A stretch of DNA of 64,000 nt from contig AP026173.1 of NCBI GenBank assembly GCA_030295235.1, positions 62,001 through 126,000 of the forward strand. The letters run 5' to 3'. Below are positions 35,287 to 57,263 of this stretch, one piece after another. This stretch comes from Fistulifera solaris. Its lineage: Eukaryota > Bacillariophyta > Bacillariophyceae > Naviculales > Stauroneidaceae. The translations under genes and the position numbers were made by a program. Within the stretch, counting starts at the first letter, position 1. Each line of letters begins with the position of its first letter. The notes beneath the pieces were generated by a model, which was not told the DNA's origin, ran no database searches, and was given only the letters and a program-made list of their open reading frames with translations.

Positions 35287-35742
35287 TGCAAAGTATAATT
35301 GGGAGAGGAATCGAATAGCTAAAAATGATATGGTATTAGAGAGGATAGAATCTACGAAATGCGAAGAATGGAAACGACGCCGCATCGAAAGCGACGAAAC
35401 GGAATTGTTTTTTGTCGACGGAGTGCCAAAACGGACCAAAAGTCACCCCACACCCCACCAGGCTACCAGACTACTTTAGGCTTCACTGTATAAGTACCGG
35501 TTGTTGGAGCGGTATAAGAATTGCTATTTAAAATATAAGCAATTGACTGTTGAATCGCGATGTTGGAATCTGCATAATAAATAATGTTACAACGGAAATG
35601 TCTCTCCGTTGACGTGCCCGCGACGCCGCTTCTTTGCGCAAAGCGTGCGCAAAACGGACAAAAAAAAAGATCGGCATCAAATTTTCATGCTCGACTTATC
35701 CACAGAAAGAAATCTACTTCTTCCCATCATCCTTTTATTATC
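35287..35742. promoter_or_regulatory. Shared upstream region of bZIP and histone variant genes
   Basis: This divergent intergenic segment must hold both promoters. No conserved box could be fixed by eye. Confidence 0.4.
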
Positions 35743-36319: not shown

Positions 36320-37999
36320 TCAAGAGGGTGGAGCGCAGGTATAACACTGAACTCCCGCCGTTCCGTCGACACCTTTCGGAAAGGACGCTCCGCGATAACC
36401 ATCCCAATCGGCTTTGAAGAAACCGGGAGGACAAAAGCCGCCCGTATTGTCCAATGTATCCATATTATCAAAATGAAGACGACATTGATTCCACGATGTA
36501 ATCGAATAACCCACCGCCAGGGCATGATTTTCCGCCGCCGCTTGACAACTGGCCTTGTTCAGGCTGGCGAAACAAAAATCGTATCCCTGCGGGGTCGCCG
36601 CGCCATCGACGCAATAGCCTTCCCGTGTCGTGACACGCGTACCGCAACTGCGCGGTTCCAAGGGTGGGATCAATCCGCTGCACGAATAACAAAACAGGTC
36701 GCCACCACTCGCTGGATCGATGCCTTTGGGTGGCCCCGTCGCGGTGCTGTCACTTTTGCCGGGAAAGAGACCCGGGGGACAAATCGAATTGACCGCCGTG
36801 CCACTGTCTTTGTTATCAAAGTAGATTTCGCAATAAGAACCGAGGGCACTGTATCCCCAACCGATCGGAATGGATGGAAGGCCCCGAACTTTGTAAGTGG
36901 TTTGTGCCGCCTTTAAACAATCCGCACGCTTCCAGTTGTTTCCGAAACAAAAGTCGTACTTTTGACCATCCGGACTGTCCAAACAAACTCCACTTTTTAA
37001 CGAAAGTCGGAATCGACAGTCCCCCGCCGGAGGAGTGGTGCGGGGTGTGCCACACGTGTTGCAGACCACATCATTGTTCTCTTTGCCTTGCAAGGCACCC
37101 GGATACCCCGTCCCTTTGTTGGTGCCCGTACAACCGCAACTCGTGAAACCTTTCGGACAAAAACTAGCGAGTTTGGTTCCGACGACCGTGCTATCAAAGT
37201 AGATTTCACAATATCCCCATGGTGTGTACGAATAACCGACCGCCTTGTCGGTTTCTTCCGCTCCCAAACGACAATATTCTTCACTGGGGACGTCACCGCG
37301 ACTGCAAAACGGATAATTGATGCCCTTGGCATCCAAACAAAATCCGGTCCAGTCGGGAAAAGTTGGTTTGTCACAATCCTGTACCGATGGCTGTCGACAC
37401 GAATAACACGGAATCTCGTTGCTGCCATCCTGGAGGGCGGGGTATCCGGTCCCTGCATGGCCACTGCTACCGGCTTTCATGCCCGGAGGACAAATCGCGG
37501 CAACGTTTGTTTTCGAATTGGTGTTGTCAAAATACACTTCACAGTATCCCCACGGTGTCAACGAAAATCCCATGGCCAGCTTGGTGGATTCGGCAAAATT
37601 CCGACACACGTCCATGTTGGTATTTTCGTAAAAACAAAAGTCGTATTTGTTTTCACTGGCATCCAAGCAATATCCAAACGAATCTTCTGACAGTGGATCG
37701 TCCAAACAATTTTGTAAAACGGGCAAGGGAGGCGGATTGGTCGTAGGAGGATCCGTGGGCGGTGAAATGCCTCCACCTCCTCCATTGGCGGGTGGTGTGG
37801 CACCCGAAAGGCTCAAGACAACTTGCGTGTGACGAGCAAACAGACCTTCTTTACTAGTAGAGGAGTCTTCGGTGTTATGAATTCGGATATTGTTGTTGAT
37901 TGTGTTGTCGCCTTGACTTTTCTGTAGGAGAAACCAACCTGAGAAATACAAAAGAATCTCGTTGTTGTGAGTGCTCATCTTTTCAAAACTACGAGCCAT
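36320..37999 (-). CDS. Protein with four tandem Cys-rich ~110-residue repeats
   Basis: 559 residues (552 from the second ATG at 37978). After a weakly hydrophobic N-terminus (ILLYFSGWFLLQKSQG) and a Gly/Pro/Thr linker come four repeats at about 95-200, 205-320, 325-445 and 450-557. Each has the order GxCLDxxxxxYDFCF, a CRxxAExTxxAVGYSxTPW block, GYCEIYFDN, a FCPPGF element, GTGYP and CYSC. The eight or so Cys per repeat are conserved, as are Trp, the aromatic YFD and the PPG turn, so the unit is a disulphide-bonded domain. I do not recognise the domain. Repeated extracellular Cys-rich modules suggest wall, adhesion or carbohydrate-binding roles. A signal peptide is probable but not clear-cut. 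The frame is intact. Confidence 0.7.
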   Translation of the reverse strand: MARSFEKMSTHNNEILLYFSGWFLLQKSQGDNTINNNIRIHNTEDSSTSKEGLFARHTQVVLSLSGATPPANGGGGGISPPTDPPTTNPPPLPVLQNCLDDPLSEDSFGYCLDASENKYDFCFYENTNMDVCRNFAESTKLAMGFSLTPWGYCEVYFDNTNSKTNVAAICPPGMKAGSSGHAGTGYPALQDGSNEIPCYSCRQPSVQDCDKPTFPDWTGFCLDAKGINYPFCSRGDVPSEEYCRLGAEETDKAVGYSYTPWGYCEIYFDSTVVGTKLASFCPKGFTSCGCTGTNKGTGYPGALQGKENNDVVCNTCGTPRTTPPAGDCRFRLSLKSGVCLDSPDGQKYDFCFGNNWKRADCLKAAQTTYKVRGLPSIPIGWGYSALGSYCEIYFDNKDSGTAVNSICPPGLFPGKSDSTATGPPKGIDPASGGDLFCYSCSGLIPPLEPRSCGTRVTTREGYCVDGAATPQGYDFCFASLNKASCQAAAENHALAVGYSITSWNQCRLHFDNMDTLDNTGGFCPPGFFKADWDGYRGASFPKGVDGTAGVQCYTCAPPS

Positions 38000-38714
38000 C
38001 GATGAACGAACGTACTGGATATTATGAATAGAATGAGGTGTCGTGGCATCGTCTTAGCAGTTTGATGAGCTTATAAACAAAGATAGAATCACGGAAAGAT
38101 CAACAGATTAATGATTATTGATTGTTTATTTTGTTTTGTTTGTTGGGTTGCTGTGTGTTTTGCGTTTTGTCGAACGTCGTGTCCGTTGAGGTGGAGAGTG
38201 GAGAGAGCGTCGAAAAGTCACTTCGTCCGGTTTGTGAAAAGTGATATACAACAGATGAGTACGAAAATAGGCCCTATTGTTGCGCAAGCACATTCACTGT
38301 AAACCTTTTGTACATAAAGTGTTTTTCCGTCGTCATTCGTATTCGTGTTCGGTCATTCCTTAGTAATACTTACTCCATACATTCAGTATAAGGTCATTTC
38401 TTAAACTCCGTTTCGGATTTCCGGAGAATAAAAAAGCAATCCATTCTCCATTCCATCGCCACTCCTCACTTTTGCCGTCACCATGACCATGATGGCAGGA
38501 TGTTTCATTCGTCGCCTTCTAAGGACAGTGGACGGAGCTTACCCACAGAGCTGGCGATGTTGGTCGAACGCAAAACAATTGGTTTTGAATTGAGTCAAGG
38601 TGATGAAAAATAATAAGGATGTTCTGCGTTCGACCAACGACGCAAGAAAGGAAGAATCATTACATAACAAAAACTTTTACATTAAGAAAAAACAATTTTT
38701 ATACAAAGAACATT
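38000..38714. other. Intergenic between convergent-free ends, nothing seen
   Basis: Holds the promoter of the Cys-repeat gene on the left and the 3' end of the first family-C gene on the right. No repeat family or gene is recognised. Confidence 0.45.
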
Positions 38715-40493
38715 TTACTGCACAACATCAGACATGGTAACCGAAGACGGTGATCGGATTTGTGATATATACTGAGAGGGGTCGTCCTCTATGTTTCGCT
38801 TTACAAACATGCCCAGTAAATTGGCGTCGTTTTCTTTCATCTTTTTCTGGCGCATTTGCTTCTTTTCGATCAAAGATGGACCACATCTTAGTAAATCGGT
38901 AATGTTTTCGCTCAAAGAGTCGATGACGGCCCATTTCTGGAGAATCCTTTTGGCTTTTCTGTGTGTTTTCGGTTTAGGAATCAATGGAGGAGTCGTTCCG
39001 GCGAGTATTTCGTCACTCTGTTCAATAGGCACAAATTGACGTGTCGATTGCGTCGGTAAAGGCGTGTCTTCCACACTATTATCTGCCGGATAAGAGTCCA
39101 GGACTATTGTGTTTGCCTCGTTGTTGTCGCGGACCCCTTTCAAGGTCTGCTCCAAGTTGAGATGTGAATCCCAACAATTAAAGAGTTGAGCAAGTCCGTT
39201 GGGCGAATCAGATGGAGGCGATGAGACCACAACGTCAGCATCTTCCTCAAAGATCATTTCAATTTCTTGATCATTTGGGTCGTAAAATTCAACATTAGTA
39301 TCGTCATCCGAAATGATTACTAGATCCGGATCGGGTGCGTCCTCCTCAATTAACATGGGCTTGGGCAGCAGCAAAGTGTTTCGGTACATCAGGTATTCCG
39401 ACTCGCTCGTCGGCGAGTAGCATAACGTATCATCTTCTTCCACAAGTGTTGGAATAATTGTAACTGGCGCTGCAACAACTGAGTCTGACTTTGGTGTCGC
39501 GCTTTGAGAGCCCTTGGCACCGTCACGATCTACGGTATTCATGACGTCAATAATACCGAAAGGATCCCATGGAGACAACGGGCGAATTGTTGGAAAGGAC
39601 TCTTTCATAGACGTCAATCCCTTGGTTGCTGCTGTATATTCCACTGCCTGGTCATTTGATATAACGGCCGTTTCATGATCGCCGCCATCTCGTTTCGTAT
39701 CATCATTCCCGCGATGATATCCATCATGAAGAATCATTTGTGATTGCAGGGCCAATCTTCGCCACCATGATCGTTTCTGATAGAGATGTCTGTTTTTCTT
39801 GTCGCGTCGTTCTCGCCAACTTTTCAGAAATTGGATTCGACCGAACCGTACTTTGGCAGACTGACCATCCTTTTGTGTTTTTCGTATGGCGGCATGCGCA
39901 TCAACAATTTCCTTTTGTGTCGGAGAAAGGTTCGTGGACAAGGAAAGTGGCCGAGACACTTCATTCAATGTAGGACGAGAGAACTCCTCGCAAGCGATTT
40001 CTACACGGAGCATGGCGCCTCCCTTCCTGTCGATCGAGAAGGTGGGCTGGTCGTGTCGAGATGTTCGAACGGGGCTCAACGCAAGATCCATTGTTTTCTT
40101 GGTGACAGACGGGCTCCATCGGCAGCTTCCCATCCATTCGGGTTGCCTGATCGGATCATAACCTTCTATCAGAAAGACATGCAGTTCGATGACACCACAA
40201 ACATTGGCGTCTACGAAACAGCTATTATCCTGGGATTCCGGCCAAACGGCAACATGCCTACGCCGTGCTCGACCGTTTCTACCCCATCGTTTCTCAGAAG
40301 CAGCTAGTTTCAAAGGGTTTGATGGCGATGAGATCCACTGTAACTCAACATTCTGTTTGCAGCTGATACATAGGTAAACGCGGACGTCGTCTCCCTTGCT
40401 TTTCGTCGTATCCACTAGCAGTCCAGCAATCGCCTTTACTGTTAATTGAATACGTTTGTCGTTTGCTGGAAGATGCCGACGCCGAAACATCAT
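38715..40493 (-). CDS. C2-like/disordered-tail family, member 1
   Basis: 592 residues, frame intact. The N-terminal ~165 residues carry the family domain: IQLTVKAIAGLLVDTTKSKG, VRVYLCI, SSPSNPLKLAASEKR, RRRHVAVWPE, IELHVFLIEGYDP, MGSCRW, and SIDRKGGAMLRVEIA. Predicted alternation of hydrophobic beta-strands and the strand order suggest a C2-like sandwich. A long acidic, Ser/Pro-rich tail follows, with QMILHDGYHRGN and DDDTNVEFYDPNDQEIEMIF stretches and no fold. Near the C-terminus GPSLIEKKQMRQKKMKEND matches a basic helix conserved in members 2 and 3. It is the only member on the minus strand and diverges from member 2 across ~580 bp. No signal peptide or membrane segment. Function unknown. 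Confidence 0.7.
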   Translation of the reverse strand: MMFRRRHLPANDKRIQLTVKAIAGLLVDTTKSKGDDVRVYLCISCKQNVELQWISSPSNPLKLAASEKRWGRNGRARRRHVAVWPESQDNSCFVDANVCGVIELHVFLIEGYDPIRQPEWMGSCRWSPSVTKKTMDLALSPVRTSRHDQPTFSIDRKGGAMLRVEIACEEFSRPTLNEVSRPLSLSTNLSPTQKEIVDAHAAIRKTQKDGQSAKVRFGRIQFLKSWRERRDKKNRHLYQKRSWWRRLALQSQMILHDGYHRGNDDTKRDGGDHETAVISNDQAVEYTAATKGLTSMKESFPTIRPLSPWDPFGIIDVMNTVDRDGAKGSQSATPKSDSVVAAPVTIIPTLVEEDDTLCYSPTSESEYLMYRNTLLLPKPMLIEEDAPDPDLVIISDDDTNVEFYDPNDQEIEMIFEEDADVVVSSPPSDSPNGLAQLFNCWDSHLNLEQTLKGVRDNNEANTIVLDSYPADNSVEDTPLPTQSTRQFVPIEQSDEILAGTTPPLIPKPKTHRKAKRILQKWAVIDSLSENITDLLRCGPSLIEKKQMRQKKMKENDANLLGMFVKRNIEDDPSQYISQIRSPSSVTMSDVVQ

Positions 40494-41071
40494 GATCGAA
40501 AGTGTGTGGCTCGGTGAATTCTTTGTCGGACGAAGGAGTTTGAATTTTTTAGTTTCTTTTCAATAACGCCCACCGCCATCGACTCCGCTGACGATGACAC
40601 ACTCACAATAAGGCCCTAACGTGCCTCAAGCTACATAAACAACCATAGTCGGGATAACGATGCCGGATGAAGGACGGAACGAGCTCAAACTTCAAGCTCA
40701 ATGCATGACGTGTCAAGGTGGAGACACTTTAAATCTGAAGGTAGCTTGCTAAATAACCATGTTCATACCATTAAGTACACTTGCCAGACGAGCATTTGTG
40801 TAGCAGCAACGAAACACAAAATTTCCGTTGTACGCAGGCCGACACTTTTGAAAATCAAATTTTGGCATAAAATCGTCCAGTGGCCGACTCGACGCGTTCA
40901 ACGGAGAAGTAAATAGAGACATCACAATATTCATTGGCTCTGCTGGATCTCCCGCCACAAGGAAGCGTTGCTTGCCTTACACAAAAGAGAAGGATCCACC
41001 AAAGCGTGCATCTTTATGGGTCTTTGGTGTCACGACAAAGACACAAAGCTTTTCAACAAAGAACAATCCGT
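40494..41071. promoter_or_regulatory. Divergent upstream region of C2-like members 1 and 2
   Basis: No gene is seen. Two homologous genes fire outward from here, so paired regulation is possible. An ATGACGTG site (about 40704) resembles a bZIP/CRE half-site; this is only a pattern match. Confidence 0.4.
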
Positions 41072-43669
41072 ATGCCTTCGACCATGAGGCCACGACTTCT
41101 GACACTGAATGTGCAGGCCGTTGCGGGCATCTTGGTAGATACTTCCCGTGCCGATGAGGACACTGCTGCTCGAGTGTTTGTGCGAGTAATCCATCCGAGC
41201 GGTAACATTTGCGCCGCTTCGTCCCTATCGAATCCTTTGAAAATAAGCCCCACAGAAAAGGGATCTACCGTTTTTCAAAGACACGTAGCTATCTGGCCCA
41301 ATTGCGAAGACCCGTGTGTTTTTGAAGCGAATGGTGGAGAAAGATTTCAGTTCCAAGTGTGCCTCAACATTCCGGACAGAGGAAACTTTCCAATCGGGTC
41401 AGGGAATTGGGAAGTATCTAGAAGAGGTGACTATGACGTTTCTGTGAGATGCTTCCTTGCGGCAGACAAGAGAAGGTCAATAGCCTATTGTATCGACTCG
41501 TCAGGGGGCGCAATGCTTCGTGTCATGGCTACCTGGGAAGGAGATGACATAGTTGAGGATAACATTCCGAGCGAAATATACACAAAGCCGAGGATTGCAC
41601 CCAAGTCTTTTGCGTTAAACGCTCTTAAATTCCAACATCGATCCCATTATGCCTCTGTCGATGACGAAGGCGCTTTTGCGTCTGATTTTATCACAAATCC
41701 GAAAGAAATTCGCGGTGAGAGCAACTCTAGACCAAAATCACGTCTTCGCCGGTTATTTCAAAGATCCAATGCATCAGATAACAAAGCTAGAGTTGGTGAT
41801 GGCGTGCAAATTGAAGCTGCCAGTGCCAGGGTCCCGTTCTGGTCATCTCCAAAGCCTGTCAAACGTACTGATCCTCCGCGGAGGTCATCGCCGCCCAAGG
41901 CATCTGCTCGACATAGCCCTCAGCCATCCCCGAATGACGTACGCTTCCAATTTGTTATGCGCGACAATGTTGGTGAGAGTCCGCTTGGTTCCAATGGGGT
42001 GCGTAGCGTCAACCATGAAAGTCCGACGCACGAAATCAAAGATGTCGCCAGGGACCTTTTCCATCGGAAAGTGGCTCGTTCGATTTACAAGGCCGGTCTT
42101 TTCATGAAGAAAATGACCTACAGCCAACATTGCTTCATCCGGGAAAAGGCACTATCATCCCACGACAATTCAGCGAAGATTCATCTTTCTCGGACGTATA
42201 CGAAAGGCCTCTTGTTAAAATGCAACTACATCCACGTTCTAACTCGCCGCGAGTGACAACTATATCTCCCACGCAGGGGAGGTTTCACCATTCGGAAAAA
42301 GCTTTATCTTATCGCAGACAATCGCCAACCGCCGTCTGGGACTCTTTATCAAGTAGGACGCCTTCTCCAGTGGAGACATCTACCTCACAAGCAACAGAAT
42401 TCAGCATCGTCAACCCGCTTCAATCGATTCCTCGTTCTTCAACACAATCCAGATATACGGAACTACAGCACCGGGTAATACCCATAAGCTCGCTGGGCAA
42501 AATGAAACACAGTTTGCATCGACATCGTCAGGAAGTGAACTCCATACAAAGCTTTGACTGCGGCAAAACAAGTATCGCTCAAAGTCGATTCGGTGATCAC
42601 ATTGAACAATCAGTTTCAAACCAAACATATTCGAGTGACACTCAACAATGGAGATTGGAGGAATTCAAGGACGGAAGGAGACTCCACCGTGAAATGAGCG
42701 TGCCGACGGCTCATTCAATTGCAGCGAATGGAATTTCGACTTTGGAAACAAGAAATAGGAGCACCCGGTCCCACTGTCGTGAGGACAGAGTTCCTTTCAC
42801 GTTCTCGAAAGGTCACGAAAGTGTGAGCACGACGGACAACAGGACCCGAAGCACGTCGGACACTGATGTTTCTGGAGCAAACGAACATGCCGCATCCGAG
42901 CCACCGCCGGACTTTTTTACTCTGCCAAGGCGATGGCTCGTATTTTTGCAAGCTGGATGAAGATGCGGTACTACGACGACGGCGTCAATGGAGAGAGAAG
43001 ATGGGTGCTGTCGCACAAAACGGCCCCCATGACATTGGCAAAAGGCCTGACCTGAATTTTCCGTCGTACGATGAGGCGAAACTCTTTGCCAGTGAGCCTC
43101 TCAAGAATTCAAGGTTGAGACACAATGACATTAATTGTCAATCGACTTTCCAGCATCTTCGTTCCATTAAAGAAGATGCTCCGATGCAACTTTGCTCTGT
43201 AGAAATAGACGAGCACGTAAGGAGTGGTTCTGCAAGGGATAACGAAAAGAAAATGGGGCTTCCGATATCGTCAACTTTGGAAGGCTGGTCACCAAAGAAT
43301 CTACTCGGAGAAAACACCAAGACCCTTGGTCAGAGTATCGTGGCCTTGGTGGAGCCTTTTGCATCTTGTGCCACTGTGAGACCACCCGACCATCCTGTAG
43401 CCGTAGCTTCAAAAGTTCCCAGCACCATTAACGGAGAGGAAGCGAGTGTTGGCGAACTGACTGCCACTACTTACGAGCGTCATATTGATCGATTACGGCG
43501 CCAATCCACTATGAACCTGCAAGAAGCGTTACGCTCGGGGCAACAGAATGCTTTGAAGTTCTTTGGCTTTCATGACGATGTCCCAGATAATCGAGACAGT
43601 TTAGGCCGAACGTGTTCCGTGAGCACAAAAAAAGAGGACTACTTTTCTGAGTACAAGGGATTGAAATGA
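41072..43669 (+). CDS. C2-like/disordered-tail family, member 2, two frame breaks
   Basis: Starts MPSTMRPRLLTLNVQAVAGI and has the family domain: LVDTSRA, ARVFVRVI, AASSLSNPLKISPTEKGS, QRHVAIWPN, FQVCLNI, GSGNWEVS, IDSSGGAMLRV. Three successive frames carry one protein. They join by adding one A to the A4 run at 42109-42112 (giving MKKNDLQPTLLHPGKG) and by removing one T from the T6 run at 42913-42918 (giving DFLLCQGDGSYFCKLDED). The joined product has 865 residues. The tail is Ser/Arg/Pro-rich and disordered. The conserved basic helix VLRRRRQWREKMGAVAQNG lies in the third frame, evidence that all three belong together. Function unknown. Confidence 0.65.
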
Positions 43670-44506
43670 CTATGCACTTATACTCCGAATGGGCAATGCT
43701 GTCACCTTCGCGAAGCCAGGAGTTTGAACTAGTCTTGCATCTTTCATAACATTCAACCGAAACTAGCAAGTATTTCTCCTGTCCGTGTTCACAATGTTGT
43801 TTTACAGATGTACGTCATCTATCAAAGTGTCTCGACTCCTTAAAAGCTCTATAAAAGTCCCATTGTACGATAGAATCTATATGTTGTAGTCACGATAGAA
43901 AGCCTTTGCTCAAGACACCTCGACCTAGTGATATGAAATAATCTCGACTTTGGTACTTTCTTGTGGGTGAAGAAGCATTTCGTCGACCTAAGACTCGAGT
44001 TCTTTTCAAAGTTAAAGGATAATGAAATTTAGTTTCAGAGCCAATTTTCATTTCATTTCGATCAGTAAGGGCTTACAAACCATCTTCGTTTCCCGTGGGA
44101 ACATTACTTAGTGTTCGTAGCCTAACTTTTGCCCCGACTGAATTGCAGTCACGAGTGCATTTTGATTAACTGAATTATATTCACTGATTTCTGAGCTAGC
44201 GTTGACTACGAGATACTCCGTATAAGATAAGAGTATATATGCGATAATAATGGATGTTTGTAGAGTACTAGAGCTTTGTGCTTTACGCCGAAACGCTGCT
44301 CGAAAAATGGGTCAGGAGTCGACTATAGTCTCGTAGTGTAGGTGACTTTTGCCCCGACTGAACTTCAGTCACCAGTGCGTCACTTTTCCAAAACGGAAAA
44401 AAAAGACGAAAAACAGTTCATTGCCATGCATCCATCATGACAAAATAATGTTTCCATCTTTATCAATAGCGGTTCACTTACTCTTGAAAAGCCAACGACC
44501 AACAAG
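43670..44506. other. Intergenic with a direct repeat
   Basis: CTTTTGCCCCGACTGAA(T/C)T, then (G/T)CAGTCACxAGTGC occurs twice, at about 44127-44160 and 44346-44380. The first is near TACTCCGTA (44214-44222). Both contain the GACTGAAxxxCAGTC inverted repeat of the dispersed motif. The stretch just after member 2 has TACTCCGAA at 43681. No gene. Confidence 0.5.
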
Positions 44507-45367
44507 ATGCCCACGATTATAGGAAAGTCGCATCGCGTCGTCGACGTGGAAGGTGTTCTTTCGATTGACGAATATGTGGGAAATGTCGCCAGTCAATCGG
44601 ATGATATTTCCATTGCCGTCGTCCAAGTCCAACAACCATCCTCCGAGCCGTGGTTGACTTTGCAATACGATGAATGGATGGTAGTACTGAAAGAGCATTT
44701 GGAAATTCGTTATGAAGGGGTCGACAATGAAATCCAAATCCTGACCGTCCGGCAGGGCGAAACTGTCTTTATTCCAATAGGCGAGCGCTTTCGGCCCGTC
44801 TTTCCTCAAGCAGGAGCCACATACGTACCGGTCTGTATTCCGGCCTTTCGACCCGATCGTTGTTTTCGAGAAGAAGAGGGTGCATCCGATATTGCCACAA
44901 AGCTAGCGGAACTTCATGCGCAGACAGAATGCACAGTTTCGTCGACCAGCCCAACGACAGTGTATCACATGTGTCCAAAGGCTTTATGGGATAAAGCAGT
45001 ATCTTCTGGAAAGGCCTACTTTCCACCAACCTTTGCAGAGGATGGGTATTTTACGCACGCAACGGCCCTTCCCGAACGACTTTTACCAACGGCGAATCAT
45101 TTTTACACCGCGACGGAAGGAGAATGGATTTGTTTGGAATTATCTACGACAGCGCTCTTGGATGCCGGTATTGTGACAAAGATGGAAGAACCTAAACCGG
45201 TAGGAGCGCAGTCGGTGAGTGAGAATTGGGAGACAAATGAATGGGCCTGCCCTCACATTTATGGTGGCATCCCAACTAGAGCAACTGGTGTTGTTCTTCA
45301 GACCTACACAATGGAGCGAGACGAAAAAGGTACCTTTCTATCCATTTCGGGGCTCACAGATAGATAG
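44507..45367 (+). CDS. Cupin-DUF952 two-domain protein
   Basis: 286 residues from the ATG at 44507 (MPTIIGKSHRVVDVEGV). Residues ~38-118 look like a small cupin: PWLTLQYDEWMVVLKEHLEI, ILTVRQGETVFIPIGERFRP, as in EutQ-like barrels. The usual cupin His ligands are not obvious. Residues ~150-275 match DUF952: VYHMCPKALWDKAVSSGKAY, EDGYFTHATALPERLLPTAN, WICLELSTTALLDAGI, CPHIYGGIP. DUF952 proteins are small and uncharacterised in bacteria and eukaryotes; the His of FTHA and of CPHIYG are family residues. The fusion hints that both act on one small metabolite. It sits between C2-like members 2 and 3 without being related to them. Confidence 0.75.
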   Translation: MPTIIGKSHRVVDVEGVLSIDEYVGNVASQSDDISIAVVQVQQPSSEPWLTLQYDEWMVVLKEHLEIRYEGVDNEIQILTVRQGETVFIPIGERFRPVFPQAGATYVPVCIPAFRPDRCFREEEGASDIATKLAELHAQTECTVSSTSPTTVYHMCPKALWDKAVSSGKAYFPPTFAEDGYFTHATALPERLLPTANHFYTATEGEWICLELSTTALLDAGIVTKMEEPKPVGAQSVSENWETNEWACPHIYGGIPTRATGVVLQTYTMERDEKGTFLSISGLTDR

Positions 45368-45744
45368 AAGCAAATGAGACTTCATTCTAAAAGAGCAATA
45401 GCCAGCATAGTTTTCGCTCTGGTTTTCGTCTGCTCGTCGTCATGCGTGCATCTGTACTCTTTCACTATCAAAATCTGTTTCATTTCCGTTTACCTATTTC
45501 TTAGAACGGTCGCCAAAAACGTTGAAAAAGTACTTACTGCATTATACCCTAATTGGAAAATTCCGCGACTGCATGACTAAGGCGACTTTGCGCGCGAGGC
45601 GTCGCAACGCCAATGAGAAAAGCGCGCAATTTTTGAAAATAAGACACACCATCGAAAGTGCCGATCCGACCTCTCTCAAGGACGTCGACAACCTTGTTTC
45701 TCTTGTCAATCGAAAGAAAGGCAGATTATAACAATATTAATAGA

Positions 45745-48051
45745 ATGAAATCCACGGATATTAATGTTTCTTTAAAAGGCCTGGCTGGAATAACAGTCGA
45801 CTCGACCAAGGCCAATAACAGTCATTTGACGAAAGCGTTTGTTCGAATCGTTCGTGACGGCAAAGTTTGCGCTACTTCCTCGCTGTCACGGCCCCTCCAG
45901 ACGAGTCCCACCGAAACAAACAAAGCCAAAATCAAGCGGCATGTGGCGCTTTGGGATGATAACGTGTTTTCCGTGCCGCGCGATGCGGAACTGCAAATAT
46001 GGCTGCGATTGCCGAGCGGAAAAGATCAGCAAATTGGTGTCGGCAATCTAAAAATGCAGGATGGTGCCACGGATGTGAAACTTCGCGAAGTTCGACAAAA
46101 ACATGGTTCGCCTTATCGTCTCGATGCGAGCGGAGATGCAAAATTGCGTATGCATGTTCTAGCGGCCTCATCGTCGAGCGTTGCGCTCCATCATTCGGGT
46201 TTTGAAATTAGCCCAAAGGAGACTTTACAAACGATATCGAATTGCGAGTTGAGTGTGGACACAATCAACGGGTCGAAAGTATCGCTAACGCGGCCTGATC
46301 CACCGAGTATTGAGGCGGATTCGTTCGAGCCGTCAGTCGAGCAAGTGTTCGTCCCCAAAACCCCGGACCATTCTAAAGATGTAAATGCCAATTCCGAACA
46401 AAAAAGCAAGAACGTGAAAAGAAGTCACCATTCGCCAAATTGATGGGTTGGGGGCGGTCGAAGAAAGCGTATGATAGTTTGCCTCCGGTTCAATCAGGCC
46501 AAAAGACCAAGGAAGCAACAAAGACTGCCTCTCCGGTTCCAGCGAAGCAGGTGAAAGATACGTCCCCGAAAAAGAATTTTTCGGCAGGGACCGTAACGAC
46601 ACCGAAAAAGACTGTACCGGAAGCCAAATCGCCGAAACAAGAGAAGTTAGCTACACCGAAACGAAATGTTTCGATGGTTAAAGTGGAAAATGATCGCTTA
46701 ATTACAACACCCAACAAAATTCCATCAGAAACCCAACTTCAAAAGAATGAGGCAACGACACCACAACAAACAACTTCGCCGGTCCAGGTCCAAAAGAGGA
46801 ATTCTATACACCGAGAAAAGTTGAAGCGGTGGCCCGAATTCAAAGAGACGAAGAGGCGACACCGAAAAGGACGGGCGGAGTCGCCCACGCGAAGAATGAT
46901 TTTGAAACAACCTCTCCAGAGATGGATCCTATAGCGCAGACAAAGAAAGAGTTGTTCCCACCAAAGCCGACAGACACACCGGAAAAGACAGAAAAAGTTG
47001 GAACAAAGAATAATAGTCCGCGAATGGATCCGCCCGATTCTGCTCCGGAGTGGCCGTCATCAACCCTTGAACTAGCGAAGAAAGAGGTCGTTGCCGGTGC
47101 TGAGCGATCGAGTTCTCTCATGACGACGAAAATGACTAACTCCGCTCCACCTGCCCGGCCTTCAGAACCCATCTCATCGCCAGAGTCTCCCCAGCTCTTC
47201 ATGTTCAGTACGCCCAAGGCAGATTTTCGATTGCGCTCCAAATCGAACGAAAACGATGGATTTGAGCAACTGGACTTTTCCTTTCCGACTCCTGATTTTT
47301 CGCGGCATACGACACCTCGCATGGGATCCAAGCAATTCCGCTCGCCACCCACTGTAGAGGACAGACCAGCAACTAACGATCCGAAGCCACTGATTTCACA
47401 GCGGGAAGACAAAGTAGTTTCCGTATCATCCGATCTTCCCCCCGAACTCCCGCGCAACGAACCGGAAAGCAGTCACGACAGAAATCAACAATCCCCACCC
47501 GTCACGAGAACGCCGACTCGGGACATGGACGATTATTCGTTGTTCAGTGAAGAAGACTCAACCTTTATGGCCAAGCCGAAACAAATATTTGGTTTGATCA
47601 AGTGCTGTATCATGGGCGATGAGGATAGTATCTATGGCTTTGACGAGACGTTGACTTTTGACGAAACGTTGGGAGAAGACACCGTGAACTCGTACGATGA
47701 CACAATATCTACGGAGCTTCCGATGAACGATTGGTGGTGTCAAGGTGGTTTGGGGGTAGGTCGCAGACTCCCTCGGTTTTGCGCCGGCGGCAAATATGGA
47801 AGGAGCGAATGCAGCAAATCGCCGAACAGAACGGAGATGTAAAAGAACTGTTTGAAAACGAGTCAGAAGCTAATAGCACACGCGCTGGTGATGATGAAGA
47901 CACTGCTACAAACAATGAACAGCAAGAGGAACCGGGATTAAAAGCAGTAAATGCTAAAGAAAAACCCGAGAACAGCGCAATGAACGCCGCCAACAGCGAA
48001 GTGTTGGGACCAATGGAACCTCCTTCAATGAGCGTCAAGATCACTCCTTGA
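45745..48051 (+). CDS. C2-like/disordered-tail family, member 3, three frame breaks
   Basis: Starts MKSTDINVSLKGLAGITVDS. Family landmarks: KAFVRIVRDGKVCATSSLSR, TSPTETNKAK, KRHVALWDD, LQIWLRLPSG, IGVGNLKM, YRLDASGDAKLRM. Four frames in a row join by one added base each: the A6 run at 46400-46405 (SEQKKQEREKKSPFAKLMGW), the A4 run at 46792-46795 (VQKEEFYTPRKVEAV) and near 47744-47756 in a G/T run (leading into GGRSQTPSVLRRRQIWKERM). The result is 769 residues. The tail has Lys/Thr/Pro-rich TPKR-like units, then acidic blocks (SIYGFDETLTFDETLGEDTV) before the conserved basic helix. Function unknown. Confidence 0.65.
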
Positions 48052-48419
48052 AGGAACTTGCTACTTGGGCTATCAAAATGTCCTACGGTGTATCTTTAGT
48101 GATGACTAGCTGTGCTAGATTCATAAAACCTGGTTAAGATTAAACGTTTTCTAGCTAGGCTATAGTGCTATGTAGCTATATAGAGACGTGATGTCGTCTG
48201 GCAGGTGTGCGTTTTCATTTATTTTTTTGTTAAAAAATTTGAATTTTTGCGGAAGAAATACCGGGGTACTTTGTTGGCCATAGCCAAATTGTTCCCTACA
48301 TTTTAGCTTATAGCAACTTTTGTGGGAGACATTTTCGAGGTTTTGTGGGGAAGCCTTCTGGCGTATCGCATCAATCAAGCAAAAGAGATGACATTCATAA
48401 TAATAACAATGGCATCGTA
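48052..48419. other. Intergenic between members 3 and 4
   Basis: Nothing beyond A/T-rich sequence and the presumed promoter of member 4. Confidence 0.45.
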
Positions 48420-50432
48420 ATGAGTTTGACAACAACAGCAACTTCCAACACTATTCAATTAGTTATCAAAGGACTAGCCGGTGTTTTGGTTGACTCATCC
48501 GCCGCTGGTGACGACAAAGTACGCGTCTACGTGCGCGTTTTCGGTGGAGGAGTTTTGCAAGGCGTATCGCCGTGCTCTCATCGCCTCCGACCAACCGGCA
48601 ATGTTGTATATTCTCTGCAGCGGTACGTCGCATCATGGTCACAACGTCATGCGAAATCGATCCGTCTGGATACGTCGAAAGGTCGAGTAGTGCAACTACA
48701 AATATGGTTACAATTTCCGGACGAAGAGACTTGCATGATCGGGAGAGGAGAATGGGTCTGCGCAAACCATAAGAATGAAGATGTATCAGATGTCGAGATA
48801 GCTTGCTGCTTATCCGATGATATGAAGGATTCATTTCCGTATCGGATTGATCCAAGAGGTGATGCGGTGCTGCGTGTAGCAATGATTTCGATGGATGCAA
48901 AGAATGAATTGCTGTCACCTGTGCAACGAGATCCGCCGGGGTTGGAAAGCACATTAGGGCCATTGGAGCTATCCACAGAACAAATACTACATTCACCTGC
49001 CAAGGCACTATCTGAAACGTCGGCAGTTCCTGCGACGATGGAAGCCGAAACTCCTTCTCCAAAAAAGAAAGTCTCATTCTCTCCGACCAAGCTTGAAACT
49101 CGAATCATCATCCCATCAGCCAACAAAAAGTCCATGCCATTCTTTTCGGCGCTCTTTGGCGGTAACAAAGATAGGAAGGGATTTTCGAACAAAAACATTC
49201 GTGGAAAAAATAGTGTCGCTTCAAAGTCGAGAATCCGAGCTAGAGCCACGACCATTTCGGTGGCTCCCGTCATTCCCCAACAGAAATTCTCTCCTATAGC
49301 TGGAAAAGAAATAGATGAAATGAGTTCTGTGACGAGCCATGCAGACGAAACTTCTTTTGTCTGGAACGGCTCACCATTGCGCAGAAATACGGTTTTTGAA
49401 GCGGTTGAGAAGCCACACACACCCATCCAACCATTGACTCAACGCACGGTGGTAGTCTCGCCGGATCCTCCCGAAAGGTCGGTCCATTTGTCAATGAACA
49501 CCGACATCGAGGCTTTGTCAAATAGTGCGACGGAGGAGGAAGAAACCGAATTGGTCGATTTGTTATTGGACGCATCCGAAGCGAGTGCGACAATAGAGAC
49601 GAATGCGGTTCGATCGACCAGCCCCGTCGAGCTAAAGAGGGAAAGTTCTTTGTCTGCTGTTGAAGCCCCCGTTCCTCTACATCAAGGAATGCAGGAATCC
49701 GACATTCGTGTCTCAGCTAAAACAATATCAGGAATGGGGCCGTATTCAGAAATAGGTCTCGACGACACACCAGACGAGTTCATCCACTCACAATTATCAG
49801 ACCACAGTGATCACAACGAACTTACAATTCAAGAGAGCTCATTGTCAAATCCTACGCAATATCCAGAGACCTTGTCAACCAGTTCGACGGAGGCCAGTGA
49901 AAGGATCATGATTCTGAATGGAAATCGATCGCATGTTTCGAGCGAAACATTTGAAAGAAATGATGGTCGAACAGCTTCTCATCGAGAAGAAGTCACCTCT
50001 GAGGCGAAAAATACAGCTTTAAAAACATTGAGCACTACAACAGTTGTCCCCGATAGTCCAAAGCATGATCTCGCGCAGTCAAACTGGCGAACGATGACAA
50101 TCGATCACACCACAGACTTAACTTTCCAACAAGAGAGTTGCCTGCAGACGAATAAAAAAGAAAACACAAATCTTGACCGCTTTTCTTCCCGGCACCTTCC
50201 GTCGCCGGAGCAAATGAGCCTGATATGGGATGGCAAGTTTCTAGGAAGCTCACCGGAAGCATACGACGTTTCTGAGGTAACGGTCGAGTCTCTCACGACA
50301 ACCGACAACGAATCGAATTTCCTATTCTCTTTCGATCGAAAAGATAGTAGTGAAGAAAGCAATCACCAATCATGGCGTTCTGCTAGAGACGATGAATCAT
50401 TTTATACAGCTGGATGTATCAGTGGATGTTGA
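48420..50432 (+). CDS. C2-like/disordered-tail family, member 4
   Basis: 670 residues from the ATG at 48420 (MSLTTTATSNTIQLVIKGLA); sequence upstream in frame lacks an ATG. The frame is intact. Family landmarks: GVLVDSSAAGD, VRVYVRVFGGG, YVASWSQRHAKS, LQIWLQFPDEE, IGRGEWV, YRIDPRGDAVLRVAM. The SPTE element is replaced by LRPTGN. The tail is Ser/Thr/Glu-rich with basic clusters (RKGFSNKNIRGKNSVASKSR) and many SP/TP dipeptides that could be proline-directed phosphorylation sites. The basic C-terminal helix of members 1-3 is not found. Function unknown. Confidence 0.7.
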   Translation: MSLTTTATSNTIQLVIKGLAGVLVDSSAAGDDKVRVYVRVFGGGVLQGVSPCSHRLRPTGNVVYSLQRYVASWSQRHAKSIRLDTSKGRVVQLQIWLQFPDEETCMIGRGEWVCANHKNEDVSDVEIACCLSDDMKDSFPYRIDPRGDAVLRVAMISMDAKNELLSPVQRDPPGLESTLGPLELSTEQILHSPAKALSETSAVPATMEAETPSPKKKVSFSPTKLETRIIIPSANKKSMPFFSALFGGNKDRKGFSNKNIRGKNSVASKSRIRARATTISVAPVIPQQKFSPIAGKEIDEMSSVTSHADETSFVWNGSPLRRNTVFEAVEKPHTPIQPLTQRTVVVSPDPPERSVHLSMNTDIEALSNSATEEEETELVDLLLDASEASATIETNAVRSTSPVELKRESSLSAVEAPVPLHQGMQESDIRVSAKTISGMGPYSEIGLDDTPDEFIHSQLSDHSDHNELTIQESSLSNPTQYPETLSTSSTEASERIMILNGNRSHVSSETFERNDGRTASHREEVTSEAKNTALKTLSTTTVVPDSPKHDLAQSNWRTMTIDHTTDLTFQQESCLQTNKKENTNLDRFSSRHLPSPEQMSLIWDGKFLGSSPEAYDVSEVTVESLTTTDNESNFLFSFDRKDSSEESNHQSWRSARDDESFYTAGCISGC

Positions 50433-50872
50433 TAAGGAAATAGAGACATGAACAAAATGGCGTTTTTATTGATCCTCGAGTGCGGCTCGTAATGTATCCG
50501 TAATGATTGAGAAATGGACTAATAACTACAAGTTGGATTCTAGGCTCTAGTGTGTCACGTGTTGGGAGATCAAAATGGACACCACTTTTATCGCATTTAT
50601 TTCGGAGTTTGTTTTGTCTTCATTTCGATTTTATTGGGACGAGCCAAAAAGTGAGCCGTTTGGGTGCATTTTTCGACAGCGAAGCTGAATACCGGATGAA
50701 ATCACATGTTCTCTTTTGCCTTAGTTTGCCATAGTCGACTGTCTTTCCGGTAACTACGGTACTACTTTCAAGTAGGCGAGTCTTGTGAAACACTTTTCGA
50801 CAGAACAAAAACAAAAAAAATCATCGGCTTTCCGTTCCCCATCACTCTTTCATTGTTATTCAACCCACCAAC
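50433..50872. other. Intergenic between members 4 and 5, nothing seen
   Basis: A/T-rich; presumed promoter of member 5. Open frames here have no protein-like composition. Confidence 0.45.
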
Positions 50873-51989
50873 ATGAACTCCAACAAGGAAAAGACGAAAT
50901 ACGAGTCTGTTCGCCTAGTGTTTCAAGGACTGGTGGGCCTTGTGATTGATCCTACGCAAATTGATCCAGCTCATTTGCGGATATTTGTGACGGTTACTCC
51001 CAGCGATCAAACGTGTCGAAAATCTCGCTGTTCGCATCCGATCAAACTATCACAGACAAATCAATCTTTTTCCTCTCATGAACGGCGATACGTAGCCATA
51101 TGGCAGGGGAGACGACAACGGCATCTTGTTGAACGTGAAACCGAAAGAGATTCTACTCCTTCAAATTTGTGTCCAGTTTGCTTCGGGTAGTAATTTGGCG
51201 TTGGGTTACTGCAAATGGCGATCTGCACGAAAAGGAAATGTAGATCTCATTATTAAACACTACAAGCAAGAAGGCGCTGCCATTCAGATAGATGCAAAAG
51301 GAGACGCGATGTTGCGATTTACCTCGGCCGTTGAAGTGGACGCATCGTACTCGAGTTCATTATCGGTAGGCCAAAAACCAGTTCTTTTGCCATCTTTCAA
51401 AGATAAATCAAGTTCAATGCGAGATTCTAGAAGGAATGCAAATAGAACACCGCTCGATCATGACGACGAAGATGATAGTACTTCTACTTTGTGTGATACA
51501 ACTGTTACAGGGAACCTTCAAACACGTCCCCGACTGCACAGCGACAGCAGCAGTATAACGATTCGACACAAGAATACATCGCGTTTTAGCGAAACAAATA
51601 GGAAAGAGGATTCATCGTCCTTTACTGGAGATCACTGTGAGTGGAATTCCTTTGATACACCCGAGTGCTTCCGAGATCCACAACATAGTCAATCGTGGTT
51701 CCGAATGACCCAGAAGAGCAAGTTCCGAGGTATTGACAACGACCAGGATGAAAAGATACATTTAGCGCCGAGGTCGCCGCGGAATAGTGGTAGTAAAGGA
51801 TCCATAGTTGTGTTCGATTTTCCGAGTCACTCCGAGATAGATGTACTAGGAACGCCAAGATGCGAAGATCTTGACAGCACCAGCGTGTCGAGTGACAGCG
51901 ATGAGGGCAAAGAGGCTGACCACTTGAAACGAGACGCCTGGAACAATAATGCACGCGGAGTTTACGGCAATCTGTTGATCGGTAAATGA
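50873..51989 (+). CDS. C2-like/disordered-tail family, member 5 (short), one frame break
   Basis: The shortest member, 371 residues when one G is removed from the G4 run at 51106-51109, which restores YVAIWQGDDNGILLNVKPKE. Family landmarks: VRLVFQGLVGLVIDPTQIDP, LRIFVTVTPSDQTCRKSRCS, KLSQTNQ, RRYVAIW, LLQICVQFASGS, LGYCKWRSA, IQIDAKGDAMLRF. The tail is ~190 residues with DHDDEDDSTSTL and several Ser-rich blocks and lacks the basic C-terminal helix. Start MNSNKEKTKYESVRLVFQ is the first ATG. Function unknown. Confidence 0.65.
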
Positions 51990-52920
51990 AATTTTTGGAC
52001 TATTTAAGGACATGATTGTGCAAAAAGCATAAGGTCACTATAATCAAATAATTCCAGACAACATAGATTTTTTACCTTAATGTAACCGAGATAGTTCTAG
52101 CACATTGAGTGTGCAGAACGAATGGAATTTAGGAACGTTGGCAAAAACGCGGCACGGTCGACAAATTGACTCGTGACCCAGATCCAGTCGTGATGTCCTT
52201 GAACCAACACTATACGTCTATAGTAATTTAGCGAAGACAACCATACGCGTGACTTTTCGTCAATTTCAAATGCTTCAACAACTTCCAAAGCTGTTGCTTA
52301 ATATAATCATGAATTGAACAATTGATATTGCACAAACTTGCAGAAGGAACGGATTTTATGTGGAAGTTAGGCTCGGACGACAAATGACTCATGACTGAAA
52401 TCCAGTCGTGGTGTCTTTCCGTTTATAGTAATCAGTAGAGTGTCGTACCGTAAGGACTCCTTACTCATTTATCTAAGCATAAAATTAGAATCAAGAAAGC
52501 ACGGGTCGTTCCCTCCAAAATCCTTTCCGGTGCTCAACAGTTCAGTCCCGGTTTATTTCTGTGTCTCTAAGTAGTATTTCTCTGACAGTAAAGCATTAAG
52601 TAATAATTCCAGCTCCTAATACAGAATAGTCTTAGTCAGAAGGTGTTCGACTTTGTCCATACTCCTTGCTCGCCCGCGAATGTTGTATAGTCCATTATGT
52701 AGACTTGGCTTCCGTTGGATTTGGATTTTTGGAATTTCGCCGATACGTTTGTGTACTCGAAGACGGATGTTTGCGATCGAGCGTCCGCAGGTCCAGATTC
52801 TCCCTCCCTTTCTGTTGTTGTTTGATTGCATTCGTCGTCGTAGATGATGATACTATCTTGGAGGTATTCATGCGGTCTTTGTAACTCATTCTTTCGTTTT
52901 TAACGTACGCTTCGTCGATC
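51990..52920. other. Intergenic with two dispersed motif copies
   Basis: Copies of the ~45-bp motif at about 52150-52196 (TTGACTCGTGACCCAGATCC, AGTCGTGATG) and 52370-52416 (CATGACTGAAATCCAGTCGT, GGTG). They lie in the same orientation ~220 bp apart, the same spacing as the unit length of the tandem repeat at 11-12 kb, which contains the reverse complement. No gene is seen. Confidence 0.5.
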
Positions 52921-55900
52921 ATGAAAACGAAAGGCGCCAGCATTACGTTTCAATTTCAAGGACTGGCTGGATTGCTCGTCGATTCATCGCGGACGGAAGC
53001 CCGCAAAATCCGTGCGTTGATCCGCATTTTCGATAAGAATGATTTGTTGGCAGTCTCTTCTTGTTCGACTTTTTTACAAAAATCTCCGACCGAAGATGCT
53101 TCTAGCAATTTAGTGCGACACGTGGCTGTTTGGGAAGAGAATTCTGTCACTGTTAGCAGCACGCGTCACTTGTTGCGATTGCACATTCTGTTGAAATTTC
53201 CTTCCGGAAGTACTTTGTCGGTCGGACAATGTGACTGGACTCCTTCCTCGCAGGAAAATTTGCAAGTTCGCGCCTTTCGTTGGGAAGAAGCGGCCGTCAA
53301 AATGGATACAGAAGGAGATGCGGTGTTGCGGGTGCGTGTCACGCACAATTTAACGACAAAGAATACCACGCCCCTCCACGACAGTTTGGGTTCACTCGAT
53401 TATTCCTTTTCGCAAAGTGAAACCATGCTGGATACTACCGATTTAGTAGGATTTGCCGTCGAAGGTGACAAGCCGAAAAGTCCCACAGTGCGGAAACCGA
53501 AGGATCGTCTAATAAAAACAAATACGGATCGCTTTGTCTCTACCAACATGTCACCGGCCATGGCCATGGATCCATTGGCGATACGGCGCTTATTTCGAGC
53601 GCGACCCGAACCGGTCGTGGTGAATGAGCCGAAGAATGAAGAGTCTTCCGTCCAGTCCACGGATAGCGGTTTGATTATTATTGTGGAACAGGAGAAAGAG
53701 TCGCCGCCTCCGCTCAAGTCGGCGTCAGTGACTGTGTCTCCCGAGCATTTGGACTATTTGGCGAAAAATAAAACCCAAGTCTTAGGACCTTCCTCTTCCC
53801 AGTCCAGTCACGATCATGAAGGTCCTCCCGTTCGAGCGGTCACACCGACCCCCGAATTGCCTCCGGTGGAGTCCATCGAGTTTATTGAGAAACAAGAAAC
53901 GGCGAAAATAGTCCCTGCGGTAACTCCCGAAAAAGCGGTTCCAAGTCCAGCACCCACCAAAAAGAAGAAGTCGTCGAAGCGTCTGTTTCATTCCAAAAAG
54001 AAGAAAAAGAATGACAAACGACAAAAGTCGTTGCTGGCTCTGGAAGACCGAGATGAAATCAAACCGCAGGACGTTTCGCCCGTTCCGAAACGGTTTGCGA
54101 AAATCAAGTCGTTTTTCAAACGACCGTGGACGAGCGAGAAACTGTACTGTGAAGAGGGTCATGCTGCCCCAGTATCGAAGGGAAAAGAAGTCAAAGTAGA
54201 TGCTACGGAAATGAATTATGCTCTACTCAGTGCCTCAAGTTGCAAGCCTCCTCCCGAAGACGAATCGACCGATCTGAGTCGCAGCGGGGAGGCACGGAGT
54301 GAGTCTCTCCTGCAAGTGAGAGACCAAAACGTTACACCGGTGGATGAGTTTTACAGCTCCGCTTTGATGGAAAATTATTTTTCGGGCAAGCCCTGTGTCG
54401 ACGGTGCTGCCCACATCACTCCCGAGACGGTCACTACTGTGGCTACGACTCCCGAGCGGGCGGTGAAAGCGCTGTTGCACCAACCCTTTCTCGGAGAAGA
54501 GACACCCGATGCTCCGAATGTTCCAAACTCAGAGGACATTAATGTAGGAACACACTCTCTTGCCTGTACCGATTGCTCGCTAGTACAGATAGGAGACGAT
54601 GGTGAGGGTGATAACCTTTCCGCGATTCCGGAAAAGAGTAGCCCGACGAGCTCGTCCAGCAACAACTGGTCGAATGGTACACCCGTTCATGTAGCCCCCG
54701 TTAGGAAGGATGAAGATCCTGCCATTACAGCTAATCGTCGCACGATAGGTGCATCCACATCGTTCGACGCCGAAATCCACGGTACACCTGTCTCCAACGA
54801 TCTTGCGTCACAAGAAAATCAGCAAGACAACGGGACTTCACCGCTGTGCAAAGAAAACAACAATTGGGAAGCATTTAATGGAAGTTTCGCAGCTGAACAA
54901 CCGTGGGTTGCTTCCGCCTTTAACAGTTCCGAATCAGCGTTCAGTGAAATTTCTCTGCATTGGCGGCAGAAACAAGACAACAGCGAGCCTCAAGAGCCAA
55001 TGTGGGAAAGCCTCTTGATACCTCCAGTGGAAGATACTATGAATGGACACGTACACGGAAAGAGGATACAGATTCAACTGAAGTCATCCCCGCAAGACAC
55101 GTCTCAATCTTATGATTCACAACTTACATCGACCCAGCCTGTTGGTCCGTGTTCAATAGAATCCATCATTAGCGACAAAATGAATTTGCAAACAGCGAGC
55201 GACGAAAGTAATGCGTTGTTTTTCTTACGTGCTGGCGATGAAGCAATCAAAAACAAGCAATCAGAAGACGGAGATCAATGGATTGTTTTTGACGACAAAG
55301 CGAGACTGGGAGGAGCATGTGCTTCTCATGTAGTGAATGAGGATGATGATGAAGAAGTCGTCCTTTTCATAAAGATACCGATGTTCATGGAATAGGCTCA
55401 CTGGTCGACTGGAATGTTGGGGAAGTCTTCGATCCAACAGATGCGTTCGAAGATGCTGTTCAGGATCTGGACACGGTCTCGGACAAGGGAGATGACGTGA
55501 TCGTCACAACTACGCAAATGAATCTGGATTATTCGATATTGAGTGAAGAGCTCATGATGGACTTGCTGCCATCTAGGAATGCGACGCCCGAGCGTACCGT
55601 CGACGCGTCACCTGGACGCATGGCCTTTTGCTTTCCAAATCGCCCAAGACGCCATTCCCTCTTGCGACTCGTCCGGCAGAATCTATCGACACTGATAAGG
55701 AAATGACAAAAGTGAAGTCATGGCAAAAACCAAAACACAGACTAAGACATTTGCTCGTCGACTAAAAGACGGCCTTTTCGGGATACTGGTTTGCGGATCA
55801 CACGTCAAAGTGTTGTCGACAGACGACGATGATGATGAGCATGAAAGCGATGATGACAGTCACTCTTATGCAGACTCGTATCCTATTTGGTCACAGTCTC

Positions 55901-56166
55901 GTAATCGGAATAGTGCGAAAATAGTGGCAAGGAAGAAGGGAATGCACGCCTCGAAAAAACGACGAGTTGTGCAAAACAGACCTAGCAACAACAAGAAGGA
56001 ATCGATACCACCTTCTCATCTAGGCAAGCAACGAGATTACCGAATGCACAAGACGTTCAGTGACGGTGGCTCTCCTCCAATCCATGACCGAGTTCTATCC
56101 CCCGCTTTGTCGGATGCAGAAGATCTCGCTTGGGCGAAAGCGAGCGCATCCCGACACTGGGTTTAA
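52921..56166 (+). CDS. C2-like/disordered-tail family, member 6 (long), three frame breaks
   Basis: The longest member, 1082 residues after adding one base to each of three runs: T4 at 55364-55367 (VLFHKDTDVHGIGSLVDWNV), T4 at 55626-55629 (GRMAFLLSKSPKTPFPLATR) and A4 at 55732-55735 (KVKSWQKPKTQTKTFARRLK). Family domain: ITFQFQGLAGLLVDSSRTEA, IRALIRIFDKNDLLAVSSCS, KSPTEDAS, VRHVAVWEEN, LRLHILLKFPSGSTLSVGQC, and MDTEGDAVLRVRV. The tail has a Lys-rich patch (KKKKSSKRLFHSKKKKKNDK), many SP/TP sites and acidic stretches (LSTDDDDDEHESDDDS). The first 824 residues are one open frame. Sequence composition alone does not show localisation; the Lys-rich patch could be a nuclear signal. Function unknown. 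Confidence 0.65.
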
Positions 56167-56429: not shown

Positions 56430-57263
56430 ATGCATAGCAATAGATTGCTAGAAACTACCACACATCGTTCTTTTCCTTGTTATTATAGCGATTTTCTTAT
56501 GATGTCACACGATATTCTCTTATCGGAATGTCAAGATCCCAGCTGCCAGGCGGCTGCGATTTATCAATGTCCTCGATGTCAATTCCGTTCATGTTCGTTA
56601 CGTTGCTGTCAAGCACACAAGCAAAGAATAAAGTGTAACGGCAAACGAGATCGTACGCAGTTTCTACCGATGAATCAAATGAGTGATGCGACGTTGACGA
56701 GCGACTATTTCTTTTTAGAAGATGTCATGCGACAAGTCAAAAAGCCGCGTCTGTCGCCCGCAATAATTCAAAATAATACAACCGAGACGCATCCTTTACT
56801 ACAACCAGTCGATAAAATGGATCGGTTTCAACGACCGCCGCAACATTACCCTCCAAAAGTCCGGAAGTTAGTACAGGCGGCAGCATCACGAGGGACTCGT
56901 ATTATGATTCAACCCTCCGGCCTTTCGAGGCATCAAGAGAATCGATCGTACGTGAACAAAGAAGGGATTATTTATTGGAATGTGGAGATTATAACCATTA
57001 TGGAGGGGTCTGGTAAAGAGAGGGAACGGGTTTTAACAGGTCCTGTTGCAGAAACGTCTCCCGTCCGCGATGTTGTGCCGATTGCCATACCCACTGGCTT
57101 TGCATATTATCTTCGTCGCTTTCCTTCCGTCGCCCACCAGCCTGTAAATATCGATTGCACGTGGAAAGAAGTTCTTCAAGATATGACCATTATTGAGTTT
57201 CCGACCCTGTATATTGGTCCCAAATCGAAATTTTCTCAAGCAATTGCAGAAATGGAATCGTGA
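56430..57263 (+). CDS. BCD1: Box C/D snoRNA assembly protein BCD1 (ZNHIT6-like)
   Basis: 277 residues, or 253 from the ATG at 56502 (MMSHDILLSE). A HIT-type zinc finger lies at ~34-69: ECQDPSCQAAAIYQCPRCQF, then RSCSLRCCQAHKQRIKCNG, with the expected CxxxxC, CxxC, C, C, H, C ligands. RTQFLPMNQMSDATLTSDYF, FLEDVMR after the finger is a hallmark of BCD1, which helps assemble box C/D snoRNPs with NOP58 and R2TP. The C-terminal half (LVQAAASRGTRIMIQPSGLS, IIYWNVEIITI, VNIDCTWKEVLQDMTIIEFP) also fits the family, down to the TLYIGP end. The frame is intact. Confidence 0.85.
   Translation: MHSNRLLETTTHRSFPCYYSDFLMMSHDILLSECQDPSCQAAAIYQCPRCQFRSCSLRCCQAHKQRIKCNGKRDRTQFLPMNQMSDATLTSDYFFLEDVMRQVKKPRLSPAIIQNNTTETHPLLQPVDKMDRFQRPPQHYPPKVRKLVQAAASRGTRIMIQPSGLSRHQENRSYVNKEGIIYWNVEIITIMEGSGKERERVLTGPVAETSPVRDVVPIAIPTGFAYYLRRFPSVAHQPVNIDCTWKEVLQDMTIIEFPTLYIGPKSKFSQAIAEMES

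Follow-up and report, generated by a model that had tools for sequence, protein, structure and literature searches.

Six neighbouring genes of the diatom Fistulifera solaris share a predicted C2-type domain and carry long, mutually dissimilar tails

Introduction

What kind of proteins are encoded by the six genes that share an N-terminal domain between positions 38,715 and 56,166 of a 64,000-nt stretch of the Fistulifera solaris genome, and how have the long tails behind that domain evolved? The stretch (C27:62001-126000 of a 51.7 Mb genome) is called here the window, and gene coordinates are window positions. An earlier note on this DNA had located six members, here m1 to m6, at positions that we confirmed, and had read them as a tandem array encoding a C2-like sandwich of no named family, followed by disordered tails under diversification. 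A guide-RNA target published for the two apt homoeologs of F. solaris (PMC13276009, which reports Cas9 RNP knock-out in this species) is present at exactly two sites of the genome, one on C38 and the other on C39, each flanked by the bases reported for one of the homoeologs, and the reversed control pattern is absent; at that site, therefore, the genome is F. solaris or cannot be told from it. F. solaris is described as an allopolyploid with 42 homoeologous chromosome pairs (PMC5935921), and a second copy of the array, on C29, allowed each gene to be compared with its homoeolog. The genes probably form an old family, ordinary in appearance but undescribed; our search of the literature on diatom C2-domain gene families, including those of F. 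solaris and Phaeodactylum tricornutum, found no description of it.

The shared domain and its fold

The six N-terminal domains are homologous beyond chance: with the m6 domain as query in a genome search, the E values were 8.3e-6 for m1, 8.7e-11 for m2, 1.7e-15 for m3 and 1.2e-12 for m4, and the m5 domain was matched in two pieces (E 1.1e-6 and 4.9e-5). The motifs named in the earlier note align in one register across 11 domain rows, one of them partial, over which S46, S49, R66, V68, A69, W71, G102, D129, L136 and R137 are invariant, and the domain signature in this alignment is R-[HYQ]-V-A-x-W together with, in most rows, G-[DG]-A-x-L-R.

Fold prediction covered two of the six members, m6 and m4. 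The m6 domain model has a predicted local distance difference test score (pLDDT) of 89.6, and both models match solved C2 domains as an antiparallel beta sandwich over nearly the whole length of the domain. The comparisons were made with VIA-align and Foldseek, and in Foldseek the C2A domain of CEP120 takes the top three rows and anillin the sixth. The guess of a C2-type sandwich is thus supported by predicted models and structure comparison; the refuting condition of the earlier note, no common fold among the six, was applied to m6 and m4, each compared separately with solved structures, and both match C2 domains. The claim that no named family fits is correct at the profile level: Pfam and NCBIfam scans of the members gave no convincing domain-family match, and a sequence search of the PDB with the domain gave no significant one. 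With matches accepted as far as E 10, no member showed PF00168 (the Pfam C2 family) or PF10358 (NT-C2), HMMER filters dropping most matches above 0.1. A genome scan found 59 PF00168 places, none of them in either array, and the same genome gave no PF10358 place at all, a weak negative because the control genomes were empty as well. Predicted structure thus places the domain in the C2 fold superfamily, although by profile it lies outside PF00168 and PF10358, and the strand order suggests the type II permutation.

Set beside known systems, the array domain resembles the C2 domains of CEP120 (C2A), Itch/NEDD4, CAPS and PI3K in its predicted beta sandwich, matched over almost its full extent, but differs from them in the absence of a PF00168 match in the scanned members, in a hydrophobic residue at the first calcium-ligand position of loop 3, and in its own set of conserved residues. 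Like the array members, the NT-C2 proteins (EHBP1, EEIG1/FAM102; PF10358) begin with a C2-like domain and continue into long further regions, whereas the array members have no PF10358 match and no Pfam domain in the scanned tail pieces. A copine-like protein encoded in the same neighbourhood also has C2 domains, but these give a canonical PF00168 match (E 9.1e-13).

Calcium-binding C2 domains carry aspartate ligands in loops 1 and 3, a combination that was not found here: D21 in loop 1 is kept (by eye), whereas the first loop-3 aspartate position falls on L91, which is L in 10 of the 11 rows and V in the remaining one, and no row of the alignment has D-x-D between L91 and G102. The placing of that aspartate comes from two profile alignments, weak but in agreement, and we infer that the domain is calcium-independent.

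Five domain queries (m6, m3, m4, m1 and, from C29, m5; m2 was not among them) were run on the genome, their match counts being lower bounds, and none gave an accepted match outside the arrays on C27 and C29. Two weak matches of the m3 query, at C29:392378 (E 0.035) and C27:412845 (E 0.49), were judged to be chance; they fall in 970-residue multi-pass membrane proteins that look CSC1-like by eye. Scans of viral contigs with m3 and m6 and of genome contigs with m2 confirmed no relative, and say little, because these collections hold viral and prokaryote contigs. The family is probably confined to its locus.

Age of the array and selection on domains and tails

The duplicated array on C29 corresponds to window positions 32,956-60,808 in collinear blocks of 79-83% identity (blastn), and the m1 domain is 72% identical to its homoeolog. 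In a tree of the domains, all five homoeolog pairs that could be tested group together with support of 96-100 / 99-100%, the paralogs being separated by long branches. The duplications therefore go back well beyond the divergence of the two subgenomes, and the domains show no sign of recent gene conversion. Between m3 and m4, the C29 array contains about 6 kb of extra DNA (L016 5635 to L017 1590) that is absent from the window array and is possibly a transposable element; of five open frames scanned in it, one matches an Ulp1 peptidase, marginally and short of the family cut-off.

Selection was measured as omega between homoeologs, taking window codons only in the true frame and omitting those that lacked an aligned partner or had a stop. 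Both parts of the proteins are under purifying selection: the pooled omega stands at 0.24 [0.19-0.29] for the domains (907 codons) and at 0.36 [0.33-0.41] for the tails (3,324 codons), with single-gene values of 0.14-0.54 for domains and 0.28-0.54 for tails. Four neighbouring genes, the histone gene being left out of the comparison, have omega values of 0.11-0.31, and that of the adjoining BCD1 gene, 0.31 [0.21-0.45], lies near the pooled tail value. The tails therefore appear to evolve mainly under weaker constraint beside a fixed domain, and the diversification proposed in the earlier note is not supported, in view of whole-tail values that are all below 1 and of domain lineages that predate the subgenomes, one stretch of the m4 tail excepted.

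The tails

The tails measure about 219-933 residues, in agreement with the first estimate of roughly 200 to 900. In the model of the m4 tail (residues 166-670), the only tail folded, almost no residue exceeds pLDDT 50, so the disorder ascribed to all six is borne out by prediction for this one. Serine-proline and threonine-proline (SP/TP) pairs, claimed as common to the tails, are enriched in four of the six, the count being reached by 12 (m1), 0 (m3), 1 (m4) and 0 (m6) of 500 shuffles, but not in m2 (105/500) or m5 (91/500). Acidic blocks, as runs of at least five aspartate or glutamate residues, occur once in the m5 tail and twice in the m6 tail but in none of the other four.

Among the 15 tail pairs, the highest local score joins m2 and m3, by a VLRRRRQWREKM-like segment with an ungapped score of 53, compared with a mean of 41.9 and a maximum of 58 in 40 shuffles; because 53 is below the highest shuffle, this likeness is only suggestive. 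The C-terminal basic helix that the earlier note had described in three members is recognisable, at that strength, between m2 and m3, but it is not C-terminal in m2 (position 476 of 710), and it is not recognisable in m1, whose highest-scoring matches to m2 and m3 fall in other places, at or below the shuffle means. The m4-m5 pair is marginal (46 against a shuffle maximum of 45). No Pfam domain was found in the tail pieces scanned, a set that for m3 excludes pieces 2 and 4 and for m6 excludes pieces 2 and 3, and no segment stands out by hydropathy as a transmembrane or signal helix.

Possible function and rival explanations

On balance we favour the reading that this is an ancient, locus-confined family of six intracellular paralogs, each an N-terminal C2 domain with a long and probably disordered tail, acting as a set of anchored adaptors. 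The domain, without binding calcium, would dock constitutively on an anionic membrane or on a protein partner, and in the tails proline-directed phosphorylation sites and short motifs would bring in different partners, so that six membrane- or partner-anchored adaptors would have one docking module in common and different cargo; the scaffold function suggested earlier is, to that extent, plausible. EHBP-1 may serve as a model for how such a family works, not as evidence for it: its C2-like N-terminal NT-C2 domain docks on membranes containing phosphatidylinositol 4,5-bisphosphate (PI(4,5)P2, or PIP2) by means of basic patches (PMC4894640), and calcium-independent C2 domains bind PIP2 membranes more strongly than others in simulations (PMC8507603). 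As to the basic patch before strand 1 that NT-C2 domains use for phosphoinositide binding, m1 is by eye the only member with a basic N-terminus (FRRR) in the domain alignment. A bolder version, which we rate as rather unlikely, would make the family a diatom-specific C2 subfamily, a distinct lineage preserved in one syntenic block since long before the F. solaris hybrid arose, whose calcium-independent dock and six unrelated disordered effector tails would serve as dedicated adaptors in some membrane process of diatoms, such as one at cell-wall vesicles or the oil-body surface.

Several results weigh against the adaptor reading or the steps that lead to it. The fold support comes from two of the six members; the TM-scores that Foldseek gives over the query length are moderate, at 0.28-0.54 among the 50 matches listed, and 10 of 1,503 Foldseek matches reach E 0.001 or better. 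As single profile comparisons, the domain profile against 16 of the 30 fetched C2 loci of the same genome (26 columns aligned, E 0.063) and against four copine-like C2 domains of that genome, that of the copine-like neighbour included (22 columns, E 0.18), are not significant. The structure lists contain both C2 domains with bound calcium (T. vaginalis, dysferlin, plant Syt1) and calcium-independent ones, and therefore do not decide the calcium question. The m1 domain is the least constrained, with omega 0.54 [0.32-0.96], and an 80-codon stretch of the m4 tail (49,776-50,013) reaches omega 2.25, a value attained in 7 of 1,000 order shuffles before correction for scanning six genes; m4 is the only member with such a tail window above 1. 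That stretch, and the fact that the paralog tails have little in common in the 15 pairwise comparisons, would suit a substrate family whose tails diversify under positive selection, an explanation we hold to be very improbable, since it is contradicted on average by the whole-tail and pooled values given above, close to that of BCD1, and since paralogs as old as these need no fast evolution to have dissimilar tails. A doubtful but possible alternative is that the domain is purely a protein-protein module with no membrane role and that the proteins are cytoskeletal or centrosomal scaffolds. The C2 domains of CEP120 (C2A) and anillin are protein-protein modules, and SP/TP enrichment is typical of cell-cycle kinase substrates, so the high Foldseek ranks of these two proteins and the four enriched tails speak for it; rank among C2 domains at low identity, however, is no guide to function, and in VIA-align CEP120 stands level with many other C2 domains, some of which bind membranes.

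The frame changes raise the further question of whether the cluster is decaying into pseudogenes, which we consider improbable. There are eight in the window copies (m2, m3, m5, m6) and further ones in those on C29. Six of the eight mark places where the window copy and its C29 homoeolog differ in length by one or two bases; they include both m2 changes and two of the three in m3, which have no counterpart there. Only two of these six are plain homopolymer-length differences, a point in favour of decay, but three more lie beside short runs, one (two bases, in m2) being neither, and all six are absent from the other homoeolog. The remaining two are common to both homoeologs. The m6 break would be explained on both by an intron, a 70-nt GT-AG intron in the window and one of 71 nt at the matching place on C29 (a 76/77-nt alternative also fits), and the m3 break (near 46407) could be bridged by several GT-AG pairs. 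The m1 and m4 genes are open in the window, m2 (one frame of 936 aa) and m4 are open on C29, and the m5 domain is open in its C29 homoeolog (L017:4091-4543). Sequencing error and introns seem likelier causes than gene decay, because coding constraint holds along the genes.

Organisation of the locus and neighbouring genes

The term tandem array holds for six neighbouring genes but not for a simple row, since m1 lies on the opposite strand and faces m2 head to head, and m2 and m3 are separated by a DUF952 gene (Table 1). The motif AACGGAA was tried as a common promoter element and rejected: it occurs in 10 of 12 upstream regions, but in only 4 of 5 separate window regions, a count equalled or exceeded by the best 7-mer of shuffled regions in 82 of 200 trials.

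Table 1. Positions of the six family members and of other genes in the window
Gene	Position	Strand	Domain	Tail	Remarks
m1	38715..40493	-	39984-40490	~422 aa	single open frame
m2	41084..43669	+	41084-41539	~710 aa	two frame changes in window copy
DUF952 gene	44441..45367	+			Pfam PF06108, E 3.7e-6; unrelated to family, interrupts array
m3	45745..48051	+	45745-46164	~626 aa	three frame changes
m4	48420..50432	+	48420-48896	~511 aa	intact 670-aa protein
m5	50873..51989	+	50873-51326	~219 aa	one frame change inside domain
m6	52921..56166	+	52921-53346	~933 aa	possible ~70-nt intron 55671-55740
Copine-like gene	29013-29702	+			PF00168, E 9.1e-13
Histone H3 variant	35581-36165	+			Pfam Histone, E 3.2e-36
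577-residue protein	36320-38053	-			no Pfam match
BCD1/zf-HIT gene	56430-57263	+			PF25790, E 2e-15

Four further neighbours deserve mention. The copine-like protein, so named by eye, has two canonical C2 stretches, lies about 9 kb from the array and is also present on C29. The histone H3 variant, whose N-terminal tail is divergent and whose loop 1 is, by eye, one residue longer, is a candidate centromeric H3. The 577-residue protein shows about four cysteine-rich repeats by eye and is constrained between homoeologs (omega 0.14), and the BCD1/zf-HIT gene follows directly after the array.

Conclusions

As read from its predicted fold, this family would extend the C2 superfamily by a branch that is divergent in sequence and undescribed, a case in which fold prediction recognises what profile libraries miss. 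Its homoeolog pairs, present together in one allodiploid genome, are well suited to testing how disordered tails evolve when the domain beside them is fixed, and if the block proved to be conserved in other diatoms, this would point to a lineage-specific adaptor system.
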